A stretch of 64,000 bases of DNA from Flavimobilis rhizosphaerae (lineage in GTDB: Bacteria > Actinomycetota > Actinomycetes > Actinomycetales > Cellulomonadaceae): NCBI RefSeq assembly GCF_014852685.1, contig NZ_JACZDF010000003.1, positions 310,001 through 374,000 of the forward strand, written 5' to 3'. Within the stretch, counting starts at the first letter, position 1; every line of letters starts with the position of its first letter. The position numbers were made by a program, and so were the translations under genes. This document shows, piece by piece, positions 1,680 to 15,946 of the stretch. The notes under the pieces are model-generated. The model saw only the letters and a program-made list of their open reading frames with translations, did not search any database and had not been told where the DNA came from.

Positions 1680-3707
1680 TCAGATGTCGAGGAACCTCAC
1701 GTCCTTGGCGTTGCGCTGGATGAAGGAGCGTCGCTGCTCGACGTCCTCTCCCATGAGCACTGAGAAGACCTCGTCGGCCGTCGCCGCGTCGTCGAGGGTC
1801 ACCTGGAGCAGCGTGCGGTGCTCGGGGTCCATCGTCGTGTCCCAGAGCTCGGAGTAGTCCATCTCGCCGAGGCCCTTGTAGCGCTGGATGCCGTTGTCCT
1901 TGGGGATGCGCCGGCCGGCGGCGAGGCCGGCCGCGAGGGCCTGGTCGCGCTCGGCGTCGGAGTACACGTAGTCGTGGGGTGCGTTCGACCACTTGAGACG
2001 GTAGAGCGGCGGCTGCGCGAGGTAGACGTGGCCGTGCTCGATGAGCGGTCGCATGAAGCGGAACAGCAGCGTGAGCAGAAGCGTCGCGATGTGCTTGCCG
2101 TCGACGTCGGCGTCGGCCATGAGGACGATCTTGTGGTACCGGAGCTTGTCGATGTCGAAGTCTTCGGAGATGCCCGTGCCGAAGGCGGTGATGAGCCCCT
2201 GGACCTCGAGGTTGCTGAGCGCGCGGTCGAGGCGGGCCCGCTCGACGTTGAGGATCTTGCCTCGGATCGGCATGATCGCCTGGTTGTAGGGGTTGCGACC
2301 GCGGACGGCGGAGCCGCCGGCGGAGTCGCCCTCGACGATGAAGATCTCGGACTCTTCGGGCTTGTTGGACTGGCAGTCCTTGAGCTTGCCCGGCATCGAC
2401 GAGGTGCCGAGGAGGCTCTTGCGCGTCGCCTCGCGCGCCTTGCGCGCCGCGAGGCGCGCCTGAGCGGCCTGGACGGCCTTGCGGATGATGTCCTTGGCCT
2501 CGTTGGGGTGGGACTCGAGCCAGTCGCCGAGGCGGTCGTTGACGACGCTCTGGACGAAGGTCTTCGCCTCGGTGTTGCCGAGCTTCGTCTTCGTCTGGCC
2601 CTCGAACTGCGGCTCGCCGAGCTTCACCGAGACGACGGCGGTGAGCCCCTCGCGGACGTCGTCGCCCGTGAGGTTCTCGTCCTTGTCCTTGAGGAGACCC
2701 TTGGCGCGCGCGTAGCGGTTGACGAGGGACGTCATCGCCGCACGGAAGCCCTCCTCGTGGGTACCGCCCTCGGTCGTCGAGATCGTGTTCGCGTACGTGT
2801 GCACCGACTCGGAGTAGGCACCCGTCCACTGCATCGCGATCTCGAGAGAGATGCGACGGTCGGTGTCCTCCGCCTCGAAGTCGATGATCTCGGGGTGGAC
2901 GAGCTCGACCTTCTTCATCGAGTTGAGGTGACGGACGTAGTCCGTGAGGCCCTGGTCGTAGCGGTATGTGACGGTGCGGTGGCGCGGGGCCTCGGTGTCG
3001 GCGTCGCCCGCGAGCTCGTCCTCGTCGACCTCGACGGAACGCTCGTCCGTGAGCGTGATCTGCAGGCCCTTGTTGAGAAACGCCATCTGCTGGAAGCGCG
3101 AGCGGAGCGTCTCGTAGTCGAAGACGGTCGACTCGAAGATCGCGGGGTCGGCCCAGAACGTCTGCGTCGTCCCGGTCTCCTCGGTCGGTGCTCCCTGACG
3201 GAGCGTTCCGACCGGCTTGCCGCCGTCGGCGAAGGACTGGTTCCACGTGAAACCGTCGCGCTTGATCTCGGTCTCGACGCGTGTCGACAGCGCGTTGACG
3301 ACGGAGATGCCGACACCGTGGAGCCCGCCCGAGACGGCATACCCGCCGCCGCCGAACTTGCCGCCCGCGTGGAGGATCGTCATGACGACCTCGACCGTGG
3401 GGCGACCTTCGGTCGGGTGGAGCGCGACCGGGATGCCGCGGCCGTTGTCGACGACCTTGACGCCACCGTCGTCGAGGAGCGTGATCTCGATGTGGTCGCA
3501 GTAGCCGGCAAGCGCTTCGTCCACAGCGTTGTCCACAACCTCGTAGACGAGGTGGTGGAGTCCACGCTCACCCGTCGAGCCGATGTACATGCCGGGACGC
3601 TTGCGAACCGCCTCGAGGCCCTCGAGGACCGTGATCGAGGAGGCGTCGTAGCTGGGAGCGGAGGGCGTCGGGGATCCCGCGTCCGTGGTGCTCGGCTGGT
3701 CAGTCAC
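1680..3707 (-). CDS. gyrB: DNA gyrase subunit B
   Basis: The ATPase subunit of gyrase, 675 aa. The GHKL ATP-binding region shows [13 protein letters not shown] and [14 protein letters not shown]. The TOPRIM domain shows EGDSAGGSA and DADVDGKH. The GTG start ([11 protein letters not shown]) follows a purine-rich GAGGAG about 11 nt upstream, rather far for an optimal ribosome site. A one-mismatch copy of the 14-bp parS core lies at codons for FTWN (3239-3254). The gene has its own 328-nt upstream gap, so it probably has its own promoter separate from dnaN-recF-DUF721. Confidence 0.97.
3239..3254. other. parS-like site inside gyrB
   Basis: The sequence GGTTCCACGTGAAACC matches the parS consensus TGTTTCACGTGAAACA at 13 of 16 positions and its 14-bp core at 13 of 14. 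The deviating base is the same as in the imperfect site at 13592. It sits in the conserved GFTWNQ codons of gyrB, so it may be a coding coincidence rather than a ParB-binding site. Confidence 0.35.
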
Positions 3708-4035: not shown

Positions 4036-4620
4036 TCAGCCCCAGGTGTCCCTGGGTCCACGACCCTTGACCCTCCGCGGTCCCCGACCGAAGGACCGCA
4101 CGGTCGGACCGACGATCTTTAGTTCCTCGACCACCCCCTGGCCAAGCTCCTGCGCGAGCCTCCCAAGCAGCGACGGGCGGAGGAACTCGAGCTGTGTCGC
4201 CCACGCGGTCGAACCGGCCTGGACGACGAGGACACCCGCGTCGAACGTCAGCGGAGTCGCATGCTCAGCGATCTCGTCGCCCACGACCTCCCGCCACCGA
4301 CCGATGACGCCACCGACCGAGACGTCCTTCGTCCAGCCTCGCTCCGCGAGCAGACGCCCGACAACATCGCCGAAGAGCTGCGGATCCCGGCCCCCGGGCC
4401 GCGGCCCGGACCGCTGCTCGGCGAGCGGCGACCGTGTCGTCACCCCCGGCCGCGCGCCCCGCTCGCGCGCCGCTGCGCGAGCCCGGTTGAAGGCTTCCTT
4501 GGCCACCTGCTGCGGCGACGGCAGCTCGACGAGGTCACGCACGTCGGGCGTTGGGTCGTCCGGATCTACCGCCGGCACACCTCGCGGCCGGGGGAGCTCG
4601 ACAGGCTCATCGGGCGACAC
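4036..4620 (-). CDS. DUF721 (DciA-like) family protein
   Basis: A 194-aa DUF721 protein encoded between recF and gyrB, its standard place in actinobacteria. The conserved core is in the C-terminal half ([20 protein letters not shown], then [20 protein letters not shown]). The first 80 residues are Pro/Arg-rich and variable. The family is related to DciA, which helps load the DnaB helicase; that role here is inference. The GTG start at 4620 overlaps the end of recF by 14 nt, so translation is probably coupled. In-frame codons further upstream lie inside recF and are unlikely to be used. Confidence 0.88.
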
Positions 4621-5824
4621 GGGTGACCTCGCCGCCGTGCACGTCGAAACGCACCCCGACGAGAGATTCCGGGACGTCACCCGGCACCGCCGCCGTGATG
4701 AGCACCTGACGCGCCGGCGCGACGAGATCCGCGAGCCGCTGCCTGCGCCGGACGTCGAGCTCCGCGAACACGTCGTCGAGCACGAGCACAGGCTCTCCGT
4801 CCTCGCGCGAGTCTGCGACCCAGAAATCGTCGTCGGAGTCCCCGACGCCCTCGGTGAGCAAGCTGTACGACGCGAGCCGGAGCGCGAGCGCGAACGACCA
4901 CGACTCACCGTGGCTCGCATAGCCCTTCGCAGGCAGGCCGCCGAGCGTGAGCACGAGATCGTCGCGGTGCGGACCGACGAGGCACACGCCCCGCTCGATC
5001 TCCTTGGGTCGAAGCCGTGACACCGCCTCGAGCAGCTGAGCCTCGATCTCGGCGACCGTCGGAAGGAAGTCGGTCTCCGGGAGGTCGAGCGCGGATGCGA
5101 GGCTCGAGCGGTAGGCGATCTCCGCCCGTCCCTGCCCCGCGCTCACACGGTCGTACGCGTCGTCGACGAAGGGCGCGAGACCGACGACGAGACGCTGCCG
5201 GACCGCGATGATCTCGGCGCCCAGCACCGCGAGCTTCGCGTCCCAGACGTCGAGCGTGCGCAGGTCCGGGGACCCTGCTGCGTCGTCGCCCGTGCTCCGA
5301 CCCCGACGTCGCGGGCCGCCGGCCGACTTGAGGAGCGCGGACCGCTGGCGCAGCACACGCTCGTAGTCCGCGAGCACGGACGCGAGGCGGGGGCTCACGA
5401 GGATCATGAGGTCGTCGAGAAACCGACGGCGGGCGTCCGGGTCACCCTTGACGAGCACGAGGTCCTCGGGCGCGAAGAGGACGGTGCGGAGGATGCCGAC
5501 GACGTCCCGGACGCGTGGGACGGGTGAGCGATTGAGGCGTGCCCTGTTGGCGCGACCGACGTTGATCTCGAGATCGATCGTCGAGGCTCGGTCTCCCCGG
5601 ACGACCCGGGTCCGGACGACCGCCCTCTGCGCGCCCGCGCGGACGAGAGCGGCGTCGTTCGCGACCCGGTGGGAGCCGAGGGTCGCGACGTAGCCGATCG
5701 CCTCGACGAGGTTCGTCTTGCCCTGACCGTTGGGACCGACGAACGCGTTGACGCCCGGTTCGAGCTCGAGGTCGACCTGCGTGTAGGAGCGAAAGTCCTG
5801 CAGCGAGAGGTGAGAGACGTGCAC
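4607..5824 (-). CDS. recF: DNA replication and repair protein RecF
   Basis: A 405-aa SMC-like ATPase that binds gapped DNA and helps load RecA with RecO and RecR. The Walker A motif GPNGQGKTN is at about residues 30-38. The Walker B/D-loop region is [19 protein letters not shown] near the C-terminus. It begins 14 nt after the dnaN stop and overlaps DUF721 by 14 nt, giving the conserved dnaN-recF-DUF721 block. No gnd gene lies between dnaN and recF, unlike some actinobacteria. Confidence 0.96.
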
Positions 5825-5838
5825 CCGGACCCCGGGTG

Positions 5839-6969
5839 TCAGCTCGCGAAGCGGATGGGCACGAGCAGGTAGCGGTAGTGCGTCTGCGACTCACCCTCGA
5901 GGGAGTCCTGCCCGGTGAACTCGACGGGCTTGTTGGGGTGCGTGAAGCTCAGCCGGACGAAGTCCGTGCCGAGAGCCCCCAGCCCGTCGAGCAGGAAGGT
6001 CGGGTTGAACGCGACCGAGATGTCCTCGCCGACGAGGAGCGCCTCGAGGGCTTCCGACGCCTGGGCGTCGTCGCCCTGCCCTGCGTTGAGGACGACCTGG
6101 CCGTCGGAGAAGGACAGCCGGATCGGGGTGTTGCGCTCGGCGACGAGCGAGACACGCTTGCTCGCCTCGATGAGTGCCGAGGTCGCCACGACCGCGTGGA
6201 TCGGGGTCTCGTCGGGAAAGAGCCGGCGGACGGGCGGGTAGTCACCGTCGGTGAGCTGTGACGTCGTGTGGCGTCCGCCTGCCTCGAACCCGATGAGGTC
6301 GACGCCTGCACCGGTCGAGAGCGCGACGGAGACGTCGCCCGACGAGCCGAGCGACTTGGCGACCTCGGAGAGCGTGCGGGCCCGGACGAGCGCGACCTCG
6401 GAGATGTCGGTCTGTGCCGGCCGCCACGGCAGCTCGCGGAGCGCGAGACGGTAGCGGTCAGTCGCCAGGAGGGTGATCGTCGAACCCTCGAGCTCGGCAC
6501 GCACTCCCGTGAGCAGCGGCAGGGTGTCGTCCTTGCTCGCCGCGACGGACACCTGGGCGACCGCCTCGGTGAGCTCGTCGCCTGAGATGACACCGACGAC
6601 CTGCGGCATCGTCGGGAGAGCAGGGTAGTCCTCGACGGGCATCGTGAGGAGCGAGAAGCGGCTCGAGCCGCACGTGACGTTGACCTTCGTGCCCTCGAGG
6701 ACGACGTCGACCGGCCGGTTGGGAAGCGCTCGTGAGATCTCGGCGAGAAGGCGTCCGGAGACGAGCACCTCGCCAGCCTCGGCGACCTCGGCGGGGATCT
6801 CGGAGCGGGCCGATACCTCGTAGTCGAAGGTGGACAGGCGGAGCACACCGAGGGGGTCGGCCTCGATCCGCACTCCGGCGAGGACGGGCGCCGGCGGACG
6901 TGCGGGCAGGGTCCGTGCCGCCCAGGTGACGGCCTCGGCCAGGACGTCGCGCTCGACGCGGAACTTCAT
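5839..6969 (-). CDS. dnaN: DNA polymerase III beta sliding clamp
   Basis: The 376-aa processivity clamp of the replicative polymerase. The N-terminus [20 protein letters not shown] is typical of actinobacterial DnaN. The ATG at 6969 has GAGGGAG about 9 nt upstream. The open frame extends 40 codons further, but that stretch shows no clamp homology and lies in the oriC leader. The C-terminus ends [12 protein letters not shown]. It is first in the leftward dnaN-recF-DUF721 block. Confidence 0.97.
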
Positions 6970-7427
6970 CTGCTCGCACTCCCTCTCGGTTCGGCACCCG
7001 TGAGCTCGCACCGAGACACAGGTCGGGATGAACACTACGCGACCTCGAGGGCCGGGGTCATCTCTGAGCAGGTGGTCCGGGAGTGCCACCGTTGTCGTGC
7101 TGCCGGTGTCGGGCCGTGAGGCTCATGAAGGTGATGTGGATTCCCTCATGAGAGAACTGTCATCGTCGTCGTAGGGTTTGTGGATCCTGGGGAAAGCACA
7201 TGTTCTTGCAGGTCGGCCATCGAAAGTTGTGATTCGACGTGCTCGTGGACGACATGTGGACAACTGTGTGTCGTTGTGGACGAAGGGATGGTGCCCAGGG
7301 ACTGTCCCCTGTTCTGCACCGACGTGTCCACAGATCCATGGGTGTCGTCCACCGTTGTCCACAGGTCTGTGCACAGGTGTGGAAAGACATCCCACGTGAC
7401 TCTCGATGCCGTGTCGAGAGTTGGGCC
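6970..7427. other. Replication origin oriC (dnaN-dnaA intergenic region)
   Basis: A 458-bp gene-free interval between dnaN and dnaA, the usual actinobacterial oriC position. DnaA-box-like 9-mers occur in two opposing blocks. In TGTGGA orientation: 7135-7143, 7179-7187, 7244-7252, 7255-7263 (TGTGGACAA, exact) and 7275-7283. In TTGTCCACA orientation: 7324-7332 and 7355-7363 (exact), with a degenerate one at 7345-7353. A TGTGGAAAG follows at 7378-7386. The 7085-7240 stretch is relatively AT-rich for this genome and could hold the unwinding element. The dnaN promoter must also lie here. Confidence 0.9.
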
Positions 7428-10153: not shown

Positions 10154-11103
10154 TGGAGTGGATGTATAGCCTGCTTTTCCCGATCCAGTGGGTCGTGGCG
10201 TGGATCATGTACGGGTGGCACTGGCTGCTCGAGCTCGTCGGGATCTCTGGCGAGAGCGGACTCTCGTGGGTGCTCGCGATCGTCGGCCTGACGTTGACGA
10301 TCCGTACCGCGCTCATCCCGCTGTTCTTCAAGCAGATCCACGCATCGCGTGGCATGCAGGTCGTGGCTCCGGAGATGAAGAAGCTCCAGGCCAAGTACGC
10401 GAACAAGAAGGATCAGGCATCGCGCGAGGCCATGGCGCGCGAGATGCAGGAGCTGTACAAGAAGCACCAGACGTCGCCGTTCGCGTCGTGCATGCCGCTC
10501 CTGCTGCAGATGCCGATCTTCTTCGCGCTCTTCCGGGTGCTCAACACGCTTCCGCAGATCGCGTCCGGTGAGAATGACCCCATCGGCCCGATCAACAAGG
10601 TCGTGGCTGGCCAGATCGAGAGCTCAACGTTCTTCGGTGCCCCGCTCTCCGAGACGTTCCTCAACACGGACGTCACGCAGGTGAAGGTCGTCACAGCGAT
10701 TCTCATCCTCATCATGTCGGTGACGCAGTTCTTCACACAGCGTCAGCTGACGATGAAGAACATGCCGCCGTCGGCCCTCGAGGGACCGACCGCCGCGATG
10801 CAGAAGAACATGATGTACATCTTCCCGGTAATCTTCGCTGTCTCGGGTGTGAACTTTCCCATCGGTGTGCTCGTCTACTGGACGGTCTCGAACGTGTGGT
10901 CGATGGGCCAGCAGTTCTACACCATCCGGAAGATCCCCACGCCCGGATCCGAGGCTGCTCGTCGGCTCGAGGCGCGACGTCGCGCCAGGGGCATCGTCGA
11001 GGTGACGTCGGCCGACGGCACGACGACGACGGTCGCTCCGCCGAGCGGTCAGCGCCAGCAGCCGATGTCGGCGCAGCGACAGAAGCGCAAGAAGAAGAAG
11101 TGA
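10153..11103 (+). CDS. yidC: Membrane protein insertase YidC/Oxa1
   Basis: A 316-aa YidC of the Gram-positive type without a large periplasmic domain. The chosen ATG at 10153 sits on the yidD stop and gives the expected start MEWMYSLLFPIQWVVAWIM, the first membrane segment. Later membrane segments are around MPLLLQMPIFFALFRVL, VVTAILILIMSVTQFF and FAVSGVNFPIGVLVYWT. The C-terminus is strongly basic (QRQKRKKKK), consistent with ribosome contact. An alternative start at 10111 would add 14 residues inside yidD and is less likely. Confidence 0.96.
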   Translation: MEWMYSLLFPIQWVVAWIMYGWHWLLELVGISGESGLSWVLAIVGLTLTIRTALIPLFFKQIHASRGMQVVAPEMKKLQAKYANKKDQASREAMAREMQELYKKHQTSPFASCMPLLLQMPIFFALFRVLNTLPQIASGENDPIGPINKVVAGQIESSTFFGAPLSETFLNTDVTQVKVVTAILILIMSVTQFFTQRQLTMKNMPPSALEGPTAAMQKNMMYIFPVIFAVSGVNFPIGVLVYWTVSNVWSMGQQFYTIRKIPTPGSEAARRLEARRRARGIVEVTSADGTTTTVAPPSGQRQQPMSAQRQKRKKKK

Positions 11104-11149
11104 CCTGGCGCCGCCAGGAACCCGGACACGAATGCCCTAGGAGCATCAG

Positions 11150-11650
11150 GTGACGACGCAGAACACCGAGCCCACGTCGACGACGAGCCGCCTCGAGGAG
11201 GAGGGTGAGATCGCCGCGGACTACCTCGAGGAGCTCCTCGACATCGCGGATCTCGATGGCGAGATCGACATGGATATTGACCACGGCCGGGCAACTGTCG
11301 AGGTCATCACCGACGACCCTGCCCAGCTCGCCGAGCTCGTTGGCACCGACGGTGAGGTGCTTGACGCACTTCAGGAGCTCACACGGCTTGCTGTTCAGGC
11401 GCGGACGGGGGAGCGAAGCCGGCTCATGCTCGACATCGCGGGCTACCGCGCGACGCGTCGTAGCGAACTGACTGTCCTCGCCGAGAAGACGATCGCCGAC
11501 GTGCGGGAGTCCGGTGTTGCGATCGCCCTCGCTCCGATGAACGCGTTCGAGCGCAAGGTCGTTCACGACGTCGTCACTGCCGCTGGGCTCACGAGCGAGT
11601 CACACGGAGTGGACCCCGCGCGCCACATCACGATCAGCCCCTCGGCCTGA
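11150..11650 (+). CDS. jag: RNA-binding protein Jag/KhpB (KH and R3H domains)
   Basis: A 166-aa RNA-binding protein of the Jag/KhpB type. A KH-like region occupies about residues 35-105 (LVGTDGEVLDALQELTRLAV). A C-terminal R3H-like region includes LAPMNAFERKVVHDVVTAAG and ends near HITISPSA. The acidic N-terminus contains a Glu/Asp-rich stretch. The GTG start has AGGAG six nt upstream. It is the last gene of the rpmH-rnpA-yidD-yidC-jag run and is followed by a strong hairpin. Confidence 0.93.
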   Translation: MTTQNTEPTSTTSRLEEEGEIAADYLEELLDIADLDGEIDMDIDHGRATVEVITDDPAQLAELVGTDGEVLDALQELTRLAVQARTGERSRLMLDIAGYRATRRSELTVLAEKTIADVRESGVAIALAPMNAFERKVVHDVVTAAGLTSESHGVDPARHITISPSA

Positions 11651-11664
11651 TCGACGTACGTACG

Positions 11665-11700
11665 ACGGCCCGTCGCCCTGTTCGCAGGGCGGCGGGCCGT
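11665..11700 (+). terminator. Terminator-like hairpin after jag
   Basis: A 16-bp stem (11665-11680 with 11685-11700, one G-U pair) around the loop TTCG lies 14 nt past the jag stop. There is no clear T-run, as is common in high-GC actinobacteria. It separates the ribosomal/insertase operon from the parS domain. Confidence 0.75.
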
Positions 11701-11802
11701 CGGCGTCTACGGATGACGTCCACGGTTGGCGTCTGGGAGTGAGATTCGGGACCCGGGTGGGTCGCACGCCTGTGGGCGTCATCTGGGCGTATCGCGTCTC
11801 GC

Positions 11803-11818
11803 TGTTTCACGTGAAACA
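11803..11818. other. parS: parS site 1 (perfect)
   Basis: TGTTTCACGTGAAACA is an exact copy of the bacterial parS consensus palindrome bound by ParB. It lies in the gene-free region, 103 nt past the jag terminator stem and 4.1 kb from parB. Confidence 0.95.
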
Positions 11819-12270
11819 CCTGCGTACGGCGACGATGGTTGCGCTGCGGCATACGAATGCGTCGTCGCTCCGGGGCGAGGGCGTCGTGACCGAGTGGTGT
11901 CCAAGGTAGCGGCGAGCGAACGGTGCTGCGCGCCCTGACGGAGTTCGGGGAGCGCCCCGCGAGACAAGTTGGTCGCGGGACGTGTGAACCCGTGATGAGC
12001 CGGATCGGTGAGGTCCACAGAGTGGGGGCGGGTGTGGACCGCACCGTGAAGGTTCGCGCGTATCGGGTCTGGGCGTCCCGCCGAGAGCGTCCTCTCTGCT
12101 GAGTGAACCGCATGCGAGATCCTTGGATGGTGTCCGCGCTCCCGCAGGTCTGCACGCAGTAGCCCGGAGGACCAGCTCGCCATATAGGAGATTCTCAGGG
12201 CGCGCGCGTGTTACGCGACCGCCGCCGTCGCCTCTGGGAGCGGACGCGGTCGTGGAAGTCATCGCTCCAC

Positions 12271-12286
12271 GGTTTCACGTGAAACA
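12271..12286. other. parS: parS site 2 (15/16)
   Basis: GGTTTCACGTGAAACA has the full 14-bp core GTTTCACGTGAAAC and differs only in the first flanking base. It is preceded by GCTCCACG, which resembles half of another degenerate site. Confidence 0.92.
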
Positions 12287-12632
12287 GTGAGGCGGGGCGG
12301 ACAGGTGGTCGGCACGTTCGTGCCCGTCTGAAGGTGGAGGGCCAGGACAGAACCATGCCCGTGGTGCGCGGCGCGCGTGGCGGCGCGGCACGGCCAGCGA
12401 CGCAGGGCGCGGCGCAACGCAGGCGTAGCGTGGCGCGCCCCGCCGTGGCGCGAGAGAGCCGCCTGGCGCTGTGGACCGGGTCCTCGTTGGGCCGTATTCC
12501 GAGATGCCCTGCAATGCGCCAGGACAGCGGTGTGGCGTCCTGAGAAGAGAAAGCATGTCAGAACGCATCCTCAGTGGTTCCCGAGCACCATCCTGTCTTG
12601 ATGATCCATGTCACGGGAATGGGAATGCCTCT

Positions 12633-12660
12633 GGAGATGGCGCCCCCACTGCTCCACGTG
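12633..12660. repeat. 28-bp inverted repeat, left copy
   Basis: This stretch is the exact reverse complement of 13211-13238, 28 of 28 bases, with flanks that do not match. It ends in CCACGTG, the central part of parS, and the wider GCTCCACGTGACAC resembles a degraded parS. Such a long exact match 550 bp away cannot be chance in non-coding DNA. Confidence 0.85.
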
Positions 12661-13210
12661 ACACGGATGAGTTCTGCCGCTCGGCGGAAGGCTCTCAACA
12701 GTCGGTCGCGCTGGTGTGCGTCGTCGTTGTTGTGCACCGTGGGGAAGTGGAGTGCGGAGGCGTCGCGTCGAGGAGCCCTCACATGGTTAGTGCCTGGCTC
12801 TTTGACCCGCGCAAGTTCGTGAGTGCAGAACGCGAGGAGGGGAAGGTGGTCTGGGATGCGCGTCCTGCGGCGGGCTGTGGTGGTCCGTAGTCGCCGTGTC
12901 CGCTCCGTGACAGAGGCCGTGAGGAAGGGGACTGCTGCAGGGATGACGCCTGCGATACGTGACGACCACCGACGGTAGAGCTCGACAAGGTCGACCACGC
13001 GGTGGCGTAGGAGGCGTGGCTGCGATCTATGAGCGACCGACCCTGGTGTCGGGTCGTCTACCGCTTGTGTTGTCCATTGTGCGGTGCGGGACCATGTGCG
13101 CCCAGTGTGGATTGCGGAGTAGTCGCCGACGCAAGTGGCCGTCACTGGCCGGCCAGGGGGATCAGGCGTGGCATCGAACGGCCGAGAATGTCGTGCCCAG
13201 CGACGTAGGC

Positions 13211-13238
13211 CACGTGGAGCAGTGGGGGCGCCATCTCC
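13211..13238. repeat. 28-bp inverted repeat, right copy
   Basis: Exact reverse complement of 12633-12660, beginning CACGTGGAGCAGTGG. The CACGTG hexamer again lies at the edge of the unit. No transposase or target-site duplication is visible around either copy. Confidence 0.85.
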
Positions 13239-13293
13239 CCGCGCCATTTCCAGACGAGGTAGTCCGCGCACAGGGTAGTGGAGGGCCACCATG

Positions 13294-13309
13294 TGTTTCA
13301 CGTGAAACA
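13294..13309. other. parS: parS site 3 (perfect)
   Basis: TGTTTCACGTGAAACA, exact consensus, extended by one more complementary base on each side (G...C). It lies in the gene-free region. Confidence 0.95.
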
Positions 13310-13410
13310 CGGAGATGCCGTCGCTCGAGGTCCGAGAGTACGGTGCGCCCCACCGTGTTGCGAGGGGCCGGGACGACGACGCCGGAGTACGGCGGGTTCC
13401 TCCCTGGGTC

Positions 13411-13459
13411 GACGAGCACCGGGACTCGCGACCGGGGCTGACGAGCACTGAGACTCGCG
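13411..13459. repeat. Degenerate 20-nt direct repeat
   Basis: GACGAGCACCGGGACTCGCG (13411-13430) recurs as GACGAGCACTGAGACTCGCG (13440-13459), 18 of 20 identical, with a 29-nt period. It is a small tandem duplication within the gene-free region. Confidence 0.6.
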
Positions 13460-13591
13460 GGCCCAGCCACTGCAGCTGCGCCCGTCGTCTGCTCGGAGGT
13501 GGTGATGGACGTGCGCGTCAGCGCGACGTCGGGATAAGGCCTCTCCAGAAGTAGGCATGCTCACATCCGCCCGACGGCGCCTGAGCCGCGC

Positions 13592-13607
13592 TGTTCCACG
13601 TGAAACA
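13592..13607. other. parS: parS site 4 (15/16, core mismatch)
   Basis: TGTTCCACGTGAAACA differs from consensus by one base within the left arm (T to C). The same substitution occurs in the gyrB site. Binding may be weaker than at the perfect sites. Confidence 0.8.
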
Positions 13608-14160
13608 CTCGGCAGCCCCCGGGTACAAGGGAGTGCCCGGTCTTCGGTGCCCATCCGCGCCCCGCGGTCTCGTCGAACCTCGGCCAACGAGGATGCGTAT
13701 GACGCCGGCACGTCCGGTTGCAAGGCCGCGCTGAGGATCTACGGTGGCAGATGCGGGGGAGCGGTGAGCTGTTCCTACGCTCGGGCGGCATGCGGTCCGG
13801 ATGCTTGAGCGGCGAGACTTCGTGGGGGCACGGCGATGTCGCCAGACGTCGCGCGTGACCCGGGGAGAGTGGATCGGGGGGCGCCTCTCGACTGGTGACG
13901 GAGTCGTTCCGAGACATCGCCCTCTCCCCGGCGCCGTGGGTGGCACAGGCCATCCAGTCTCTTCGTTGCCACGACGCAGTCTGCGCGTCATCGACTCCCT
14001 GCACCCACGCCGTCCTCGGCAGCAAGACGAACTGTGCCGGGGATCAGTTGCATGAGTGCGATCCGTCCGTTGGCAACGGGCGCCACATCTTCTGCGGCGA
14101 GCTCGAGTGTCGGAGGCGGGGGGTAACCTAGGACGGAACCCCCAGGCGAAGGAGTGCCGC

Positions 14161-14859
14161 GTGCCCGTCAACACCCCGGACCGCAGCGATGTTTCACGTG
14201 AAACGGAGCACGTCGAGCCCGCGGGCGTCGATGAGTTGTCATCGGAGGACCCGCGGCTCGCATCCTTCTTCGGCGATGCGTTTGCCAAGGTCCGAGACTT
14301 CCATGATGCGCTCGCCCACCAGGGTGAGCTCCGAGGACTCATCGGTCCCCGGGAAGTGCCGCGACTCTGGTCGCGGCATCTTCTCAACTCCGCCTCCGTC
14401 GTCCCGTTCCTCCCTGCTACGGGCATGATTGTCGATCTCGGGTCCGGCGCCGGCCTCCCGGGAATCGTCATCGCGGCCATGCGACCACAGGCGGTGGTCG
14501 TGCTCATCGAGCCGATGGAACGCAGGTGCGCATGGCTCACCGAGGTTGCTGCCGAGCTCGAGCTCGGCAACGTCGAGGTGCGCCGAGGCCGCGCCGAGGA
14601 GTTCCATGGAGCGTTCGAGGCGGACGCGGTCACGGCTCGCGCCGTCGCGGCGCTCGACAAGCTGGGCCGGTGGGCCTTCCCCCTCCTGCGACGGGGAGGA
14701 GAGCTGGTCGTCCTCAAGGGCCGGTCCGCTCAGGAGGAGATCGACGCTGCCACCAAGGTGCTTCGCAAGTTCGGAGCAACCGACGCCCAGGTGCACGAAG
14801 CACCGACGATCGACGGACTCACCGTCACCTCGGTTGTCACGGCGACCCGCACACGATGA
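14161..14859 (+). CDS. rsmG: 16S rRNA (guanine-527-N7) methyltransferase RsmG
   Basis: A 232-aa SAM-dependent methyltransferase that modifies G527 of 16S rRNA. The SAM-binding motif I is VDLGSGAGLPGIVIA; further family blocks are WSRHLLNSASV and RAVAALDKLGRWAFPLL. The GTG at 14161 has GAAGGAG eight nt upstream; an in-frame extension to 14056 lacks this. Residues 10-15 (DVSRET) are encoded by a parS site, so the N-terminus doubles as a centromere element. It stands before parA-parB as in other actinobacteria. Confidence 0.96.
   Translation: MPVNTPDRSDVSRETEHVEPAGVDELSSEDPRLASFFGDAFAKVRDFHDALAHQGELRGLIGPREVPRLWSRHLLNSASVVPFLPATGMIVDLGSGAGLPGIVIAAMRPQAVVVLIEPMERRCAWLTEVAAELELGNVEVRRGRAEEFHGAFEADAVTARAVAALDKLGRWAFPLLRRGGELVVLKGRSAQEEIDAATKVLRKFGATDAQVHEAPTIDGLTVTSVVTATRTR
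14190..14205. other. parS: parS site 5, inside rsmG
   Basis: TGTTTCACGTGAAACG keeps the perfect 14-bp core and differs in the last flanking base. It encodes VSRET near the N-terminus of RsmG, outside the methyltransferase core, where sequence is free to serve the DNA site. Confidence 0.93.
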
Positions 14860-14911
14860 TCGACAGTGCTCTCAGGGCTCAGGCTCTACTCACACGACGA
14901 GAGGGAGAAGC

Positions 14912-15946
14912 GTGACCGACAGCGACACCACCGCGCCAAGCGCGGCGCGTGACGTTTCACGTGAAACATCGCCCTACGAGCACCAGAGTCACGAAGAGCG
15001 ACGGCGAGCACAGATCATGGAGAGTGTCCCGTCCTTCGAGGAGGACACCCCGCTCGCCGCGCAACTCGCACTCGACGCACGTCGACGCATCAGGCTGCGC
15101 GGACGACGCTTCCCCCGGCCGGAGCGAACCCGCATCATCACGGTGGCGAACCAGAAGGGTGGCGTGGGGAAGACGACGTCGACGGTCAATCTCGCAGCGG
15201 GTCTCGCCCAGTCGGGGCTCAACGTCCTTGTCATCGACAACGATCCGCAGGGCAACGCGTCGACTGCGCTTGGCGTAGATCACCGGGCCGGGACGCCGTC
15301 GGTGTATGACGTCCTCGTCAACGACACACCGATGCGTGACGTCGTGCAGCGCTGCCCCAACGTCGAGAGTCTGTGGTGTGTTCCCGCGACGATCGACCTC
15401 TCGGGTGCTGAGATCGAGCTCGTCTCCCTCGTCTCCCGAGAGACAAGGTTGCGGCGCGCGCTCGACACGTTCCTTGCCGAGCGAGAGGCCGCGGGGGAGG
15501 AGCGCTTCGACTACGTCTTCGTCGACTGCCCCCCATCCCTCGGACTCCTCACCGTCAACGCGTTCGTCACCGGACGCGAGGTGCTCATCCCCATCCAGTG
15601 CGAGTACTACGCCCTCGAGGGCCTGAGCCAGCTCCTCAAGAGCATCAGCATGATCCAGTCGCACCTCAACCAGGAGCTCCACCTCGCCACGATCCTCCTG
15701 ACGATGTACGACGGACGGACAAACCTCGCCCAGCAGGTCGCAGCAGAGGTGCGCGAGCACTTCCCCGAGCAGACGCTTCTCACCGCGATCCCGCGGTCCG
15801 TACGCGTCTCCGAAGCGCCGTCCTACGGCCAGACCGTCATGACATACGATCCCAACTCCACGGGAGCCCTCGCCTACCTCGAGGCCGCCCGAGAGATCGC
15901 CGAACGCGGCACCACCGCGACCCAGGAGCAGAGGCAGGACGCATGA
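14912..15946 (+). CDS. parA: Chromosome partitioning ATPase ParA (Soj)
   Basis: A 344-aa deviant-Walker ATPase that moves ParB-parS complexes to segregate origins. The Walker A motif KGGVGKTT is at residues 82-89. Further ParA blocks are [23 protein letters not shown] and [15 protein letters not shown]. The GTG at 14912 has GAGGGAGAA upstream. A long N-terminal extension (about 70 residues, acidic and Arg-rich) precedes the ATPase fold, and its residues 14-19 (DVSRET) are encoded by parS site 6. It overlaps parB by 4 nt. Confidence 0.96.
14953..14968. other. parS: parS site 6, inside parA
   Basis: CGTTTCACGTGAAACA keeps the perfect 14-bp core. As in rsmG, it reads DVSRET in frame, in the non-conserved N-terminal extension of ParA. 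Confidence 0.93.

Follow-up and report, generated by a model that had tools for sequence, protein, structure and literature searches.

A gene-free spacer between jag and rsmG carries four of the six clustered parS sites near the presumed replication origin of Flavimobilis rhizosphaerae

A survey of parS sites was reportedly made by Livny et al. in 2007. In the available text of three papers ParB is described as a CTP-dependent clamp, loaded at parS, which slides along and condenses DNA and, besides acting on ParA, promotes the loading of SMC (PMC7053999, PMC8299390, PMC7083940), and one cited paper, as far as its accessible portion goes, has the sites clustered within 5-40 kb in most bacteria. 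In Corynebacterium glutamicum, according to the same portion of PMC7083940, nine of ten parS sites are intergenic, and ParB loads there and recruits SMC. A parS cluster beside parAB is a locus of a known kind. The cluster described here lies mostly in one gene-free spacer.

The window, by which we mean the whole 64-kb stretch of DNA analysed, comes from a genome that was scanned as 21 contigs totalling 3.06 Mb. The translations of the open reading frames give the gene order dnaN, dnaA (minus strand), then rnpA, yidD, yidC, jag, the spacer, rsmG, parA and parB. The first five names are putative, while jag, rsmG, parA and parB were checked by profile search (Table 1). parA and parB adjoin the parS cluster, the arrangement of a chromosomal ParABS centromere. 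The spacer lies 4-5 kb from the gap between dnaA and dnaN, which we infer to be oriC; at 7255-7363 this gap holds four boxes, two of them exact, of the type TTGTCCACA, which we take to be the DnaA-box consensus.

Table 1. Features at the jag-rsmG spacer and in the adjoining genes, in window coordinates.
Feature	Start	End	Strand	Remarks
jag (RNA-binding protein Jag/EloR)	11150	11650	+	Left border of spacer; NCBIfam Jag_EloR E 1.4e-26, below the model's curated cut-off
Spacer	11651	14160		Gene-free, parS-bearing; 2510 nt from jag stop (11650) to rsmG start (GTG, 14161)
Hairpin directly after jag	11663	11702	+	Inverted repeat, strong (-44.4 kcal/mol), without T run, terminator-like
parS 1	11803	11818	+	Perfect 16-mer
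parS 2	12271	12286	+	One mismatch, outside exact 14-mer core
28-bp perfect inverted repeat, left arm	12633	12660	+	Ends in CACGTG; arms 550 nt apart
28-bp perfect inverted repeat, right arm	13211	13238	-	Arms 550 nt apart
parS 3	13294	13309	+	Perfect 16-mer
parS 4	13592	13607	+	One mismatch, within core (GTTCC)
Conserved block before rsmG	14102	14160	+	88% identity over 59 nt with G004; by eye, TAACCT as -10, short leader, AAGGAG ribosome site
rsmG	14161	14859	+	Right border of spacer; TIGR00138 E 3.1e-36, above cut-off
parS 5, in 5' end of rsmG	14190	14205	+	Encodes VSRET; 16-mer scan and translation
parA	14912	15946	+	ParA-type ATPase models, best E 3.8e-32, none of 25 best matches reaching cut-off; gene order
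parS 6, in 5' end of parA	14953	14968	+	Encodes VSRET; 16-mer scan and translation
parB	15943	16941	+	TIGR00180 parB_part E 4.7e-57, above cut-off

Scanning the window for the 16-mer TGTTTCACGTGAAACA with up to 3 mismatches gave seven matches where 0.06 were expected, well above chance and in keeping with a ParABS centromere. Six of them span 3.17 kb, four in the spacer, one in the 5' end of rsmG and one in that of parA, which agrees with the four spacer sites (two perfect) and the six sites over 3.2 kb of a preliminary description of this DNA. Over all 21 contigs the five exact 14-mer cores fall inside the cluster, as do six of the nine places with up to 2 mismatches; the other three, with 1-2 mismatches, are found outside the cluster on the contig that carries it. 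By eye, letters of the form CGnCTCnCT flank two spacer sites in one orientation and the similar CATCTCCGT flanks a third, which is compatible with duplication of sites. Both gene-embedded sites encode the same peptide, and the body of rsmG holds no site in 69 genomes. The seventh match, at 3239-3254 beyond dnaA-dnaN, has 3 mismatches to the 16-mer and one in the 14-mer core; ParB binding there, if true, would bracket the origin.

No gene could be detected in the spacer, nor any trace of a lost one. In 300-nt windows the codon-phase G+C contrast is 0.02-0.15 at 11.6-14.1 kb, compared with 0.27-0.52 in yidC and jag and 0.28-0.32 in rsmG. A crude periodicity gene caller leaves a gap of 2456 nt, the next largest in the 64 kb being about 4-fold smaller (636 nt), and the top ORF within the spacer has a periodicity score of 3.0, against a threshold of 8 and scores of 8.6 to 127 for 13 called genes nearby. 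The longest open frame, of 319 codons, is no longer than those of order-2 simulations (p 0.56). Pfam gave no match to six spacer ORFs at E <= 1 or to 22 spacer open frames 80 or more codons long at E <= 0.1. Rfam over 11000-15200, searched at E <= 1, gave none at threshold, its single far weaker match (E 0.68) being at chance level, and a tRNA search of the 64-kb window found none. Codon periodicity, family match and conserved translation, which would mark a coding region or pseudogene, were all absent. A hidden gene or pseudogene was rejected on the flat codon phase, the lack of a Pfam match and the lack of interior conservation with the genus-mate G004 (see below), and an Rfam-type structured RNA on the Rfam result. 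The earlier observation that 2.46 kb hold no credible gene thus stands, as does the gene-free interval itself; its left limit, 11701, does not, since the spacer proper starts directly after jag and the jag-end hairpin begins before 11701.

To place the spacer among its relatives we surveyed 119 genomes, the source genome and 118 relatives; Jag was matched in 118 of them, the source included, and RsmG in all 119. Outside the family, in the order-level set of 46 genomes (10 of which were retrieved as DNA), none has more than 304 nt between the matched ends of the two genes. Within the family, spacers were measured in 71 of 73 genomes from 25 genera, G040, in which the two genes are on separate contigs, and G064, in which jag was unmatched, being left out: 39 are short (<250 nt), 10 intermediate and 22 long (at least 800 nt, up to 2952), so that jag and rsmG are indeed often close, as had been stated. 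Loci L041-L067, partly from the same genomes, entered the parS locus scan and stand outside the family statistics, and L068 (Chloroflexi) was left out. Family lengths run from 0 to 3 kb and vary widely within some genera. Near relatives are alike in length, with a mean log difference of 0.26 versus 0.61 for shuffled labels (reached in 0 of 2000 shuffles). On a midpoint-rooted FastTree phylogeny from jag-rsmG-parA-parB (changes not formally counted; parA found in 70 of the 71 loci and parB in 65) the long spacers sit on several separated branches, and were therefore probably gained or lost repeatedly.

None of the long family spacers holds a convincing gene. Their top codon-phase contrast per 240-nt window is 0.09-0.28, the highest, in G002, being near that of rsmG, and in 21 of the 22 the open frames do not exceed simulated lengths, the exception being G004. 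Pfam against 63 frames, the three longest from each of the other 21 long spacers, gave one match, to a coronavirus family (E 0.0074), which we take as chance. All 22 carry parS with at most 1 mismatch. On the rsmG strand G exceeds C in 22 of 22 and T exceeds A in 19 of 22, skews that we read as leading-strand mutation bias.

Searched against five genus-mates, the 2460-nt interval matched only 59 nt of G004, beside rsmG, and, weakly, 54 nt on a different contig of G002. G004, a single-contig genome, carries ~2440 nt between the same genes, compared with 2510 nt in the source genome, and its parS sites lie 131, 745, 1641 and 2470 nt after jag, those of the source at 153, 621, 1644, 1942 and 2540 nt. 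Forced alignment of the two spacers gives 49% identity, with true similarity limited to the jag-end hairpin (kept in G004 with some letters differing), the block before rsmG and parS. tblastx between the spacers gives short matches, the strong ones, among the matches listed, lying at the borders or at parS. The preliminary description had proposed to ask whether close relatives conserve the spacer without coding capacity; length, borders and parS are kept in G004, while the interior is unalignable. The four-fold sites of rsmG agree at 0.446 between the two genomes (121 sites; proteins 82.5% identical), and we therefore take neutral sites to be near saturation. Unalignable filler is then expected, and the similar spacer length is the notable point, although slow, neutral loss of spacer DNA could likewise leave sister species with similar lengths. 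The within-genus comparison covered four pairs in all; in the other three the borders are alignable and the interior is without matches beyond parS, at lengths of 887/1365, 804/971 and 1434/1870 nt. The spacer of G004 (L072) also contains a 719-codon open frame (4343-6499, plus strand), longer than all 200 simulations, with flat codon-phase G+C (0.697/0.673/0.695); we take it as chance among 22 spacers tested.

Both borders of the spacer carry candidate elements. The energy of the hairpin after jag has a median of -35.2 kcal/mol in the 22 long-spacer genomes versus -20.9 in spacer interiors. Long and short spacers do not separate in this respect (median -35.2 versus -30.4 kcal/mol, p 0.15), so that the hairpin belongs to jag and not to the long spacer. 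It presumably marks the end of jag transcription; a consensus terminator scan found no terminator at it. In G002 (L070) and G005 (L073) the hairpin core in the first 60 nt after jag is the parS palindrome, and one palindrome may there act both as a terminator-like hairpin in RNA and as a ParB site in DNA. The conserved block before rsmG is, to judge from its letters, probably a promoter; a generic sigma-70 scan found no promoter in it, and alignable blocks at the rsmG border are also present in the pairs G001/G003, G002/G005 and G015/G055. Lying between the jag-end hairpin and the putative rsmG promoter, the spacer is probably little transcribed.

The internal repeats noted earlier were found again, as the 28-bp perfect inverted repeat and a direct repeat of 82% at 13403/13432. 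The inverted repeat is far above chance, the longest in 100 order-1 simulations being 16 nt, and by eye the end of its left arm runs into a degenerate parS-like site that has 3 core mismatches. The source genome holds no other full copy, and the other 21 long spacers hold no like inverted repeat, the longest there being 14 nt. A mobile element bounded by the repeat was rejected on these two results and on the absence, by eye, of a flanking duplication. Close direct repeats are also found in G004 (51 nt matched, offset 7), G055 (48, offset 6) and G025 (30, offset 120). These sequences suggest that the spacer turns over by small duplications and inversions.

The position of the sites changes with the length of the spacer. 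We analysed 69 genomes (G006 and G027 were dropped, their contigs ending early) by 68 independent contrasts of log spacer length against parS counts, with sites counted at most 1 mismatch and genome totals as exact sites. With length, sites in the spacer rise (r 0.55, p 1e-6) and downstream sites in rsmG-parA-parB fall (r -0.39, p 0.001), whereas the local total does not change (r 0.03, p 0.79); the genome exact total gives r 0.17 (p 0.18). With unlogged length the contrasts are 0.47 for the spacer, -0.27 downstream (weaker, p 0.025), 0.09 for the local and 0.11 for the genome total. Raw correlations agree with the contrasts apart from the local total, which increases weakly (Spearman 0.32, p 0.008); genome-wide exact sites are flat (Spearman 0.08, p 0.52, n = 69). 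Most exact sites lie within the loci: 91 of 97 for genomes with long spacers, 37 of 42 for those with intermediate and 136 of 160 for those with short ones. Three genera include both short (<250 nt) and long (>=800 nt) spacers, and in each of them the long-spacer members have fewer downstream sites. Per genome, long-spacer versus short-spacer, there are 2.76 versus 0.37 sites in the spacer, 1.62 versus 2.11 at the rsmG-parA junction, 0.43 versus 0.89 in the parA body, 0 versus 0.21 in the parB body (which includes sites after parA where parB was unmatched) and 0.05 versus 0.53 after parB; sites at the rsmG start are commoner in long-spacer genomes (0.48 versus 0.18).

Spacing is alike in both states. 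The median distance between sites is 663 nt in long- and 641 nt in short-spacer genomes (p 0.93), and the median local span, bounded by the fetched stretch, is 3.1 versus 2.7 kb (p 0.24). In tests that treat genomes as independent, although they are not, whole local clusters of long-spacer genomes avoid close neighbours beyond random inner placement (p 4e-5, n = 21), whereas this was not significant in short-spacer genomes (p 0.13, n = 32). Within spacers alone, again with genomes as independent, the minimum gap gives a weak p of 0.039 and evenness is not significant (p 0.48; n = 16 for both). Sites 25-54 nt apart occur in some relatives, so wide spacing is not obligatory. Tandem arrays were seen in G030 (L098), with five exact sites 32-35 nt apart at 51-186 nt after jag in a 255-nt spacer, and in G025 (L093), with five sites (three exact) 54 nt apart at 2788-3004 nt after jag, downstream of rsmG.

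Because relatives have a similar number and spacing of sites in or beside genes, the locus looks like a relocated rather than an enlarged centromere: one of usual size moved largely out of genes, neither expanded nor unusually compact. Of the dedicated, expanded centromere first proposed, the gene-free parS spacer beside rsmG-parA-parB is real, recurs in the family and would suit a platform for ParB loading, while the expansion is not supported by the flat genome totals and the unchanged local total in contrasts, the raw local rise being weak. "Unusually compact" fits neither the spans of the relatives nor Myxococcus xanthus, for which the accessible part of PMC3899335 gives 22 putative parS in 3 kb.

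The explanation that we favour, and hold to be rather probable, is a relocated centromere with a spacer length that depends on site spacing. The parS cluster would be the chromosome's centromere, most of it in the gene-free DNA that separates jag from the putative promoter of rsmG-parA-parB. ParB dimers, acting as CTP-dependent clamps, would be loaded at the four spacer and two gene-embedded sites and slide over the DNA between them, giving one partition complex that would be moved by ParA and on which SMC would be loaded; from what is known of parABS the spacer is predicted to be a zone of ParB loading and sliding. The letters between the sites would be mostly filler, and what is kept would be the number of sites and a spacing of ~0.3-1 kb. 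Where sites lie in or beside the neighbouring genes the spacer could be short; where they have moved out it would have to be long enough to hold them apart. Selection for site spacing is our preferred reason for the spacer length, with moderate support. More tentatively, and with doubts outweighing our confidence, one may read the family (Cellulomonadaceae-type) as having a near-fixed centromere geometry, of about five parS at ~0.65-kb spacing, moved repeatedly between coding DNA and a spacer purposely kept free of transcription, its length selected and its letters free because ParB clamps and SMC would need a clear runway between loading sites.

The main competitor, which we think possible and would not favour, is a neutral spacer, a lax intergenic region in which sites appeared or were copied and then persisted because ParB uses them, and whose length drifts without a role. 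Saturated interior letters, family lengths that differ so widely within some genera, repeated units in several spacers (G004, G055 and G025 among them) and base skews that look like leading-strand mutation bias would all suit it. It accounts less readily for parS in every long spacer and for a site spacing matching that of gene-embedded clusters; laxity would moreover have to be local, as all other gaps in the window measure 636 nt or less, and near relatives share length far beyond shuffled labels, though slow drift would give this too.

That the centromere is truly expanded, with more ParB loading than in relatives, is improbable: longer spacers do hold more parS and the raw local total creeps up, but neither the genome exact total nor the contrast-corrected local total follows. 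We give still less credit to the idea that this DNA is what lost genes left behind, or that it hides a fast-evolving gene or RNA. The long open frames here and in G004, and the match to a viral family in one of the relatives' 63 frames, are what it could point to; codon-phase composition is flat, Pfam and (at threshold) Rfam gave no match here, the interior is not conserved with G004 and the other long spacers lack a convincing gene. The lost genes of the preliminary description thus find no support in codon phase, open-frame simulations or Pfam, here or in the relatives' spacers. A second replication origin or DnaA-titration element is scarcely credible; the spacer does lie within 5 kb of dnaA-dnaN, but it contains no DnaA box, single or clustered, with up to 1 mismatch.

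A family whose members have comparable numbers of sites, some within and around genes and others in gene-free DNA, offers a natural experiment on whether parS spacing and freedom from transcription matter for ParB clamp loading and SMC traffic, and the spacer may be a case of selected length without selected letters, which conservation scans would miss. In the accessible portions of the open-licence literature we found no description of a gene-free host spacer trading places with coding positions at constant site number.

One close comparison is with the short-spacer relatives in the family (e.g. L099), which share the gene order and have a similar site number and median spacing, but which have jag near rsmG and most of their sites at the rsmG-parA junction, within parA, and around and past parB. 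C. glutamicum, as described in the part of PMC7083940 available, is likewise actinobacterial, with a Bacillus subtilis-like parS consensus and a cluster near oriC; its ten sites, however, extend over a 35-kb region 73 kb from oriC, whereas the source genome has six within 3.2 kb, and a single gene-free spacer beside parAB contains four of these. M. xanthus resembles it in having a dense cluster of ~3 kb near parAB, but there, according to the accessible text of PMC3899335, the 22 repeats follow another consensus (TGTTCCACGTGGAACG) and lie ~4 kb upstream of parA, while the sites of the source genome are few and widely spaced.
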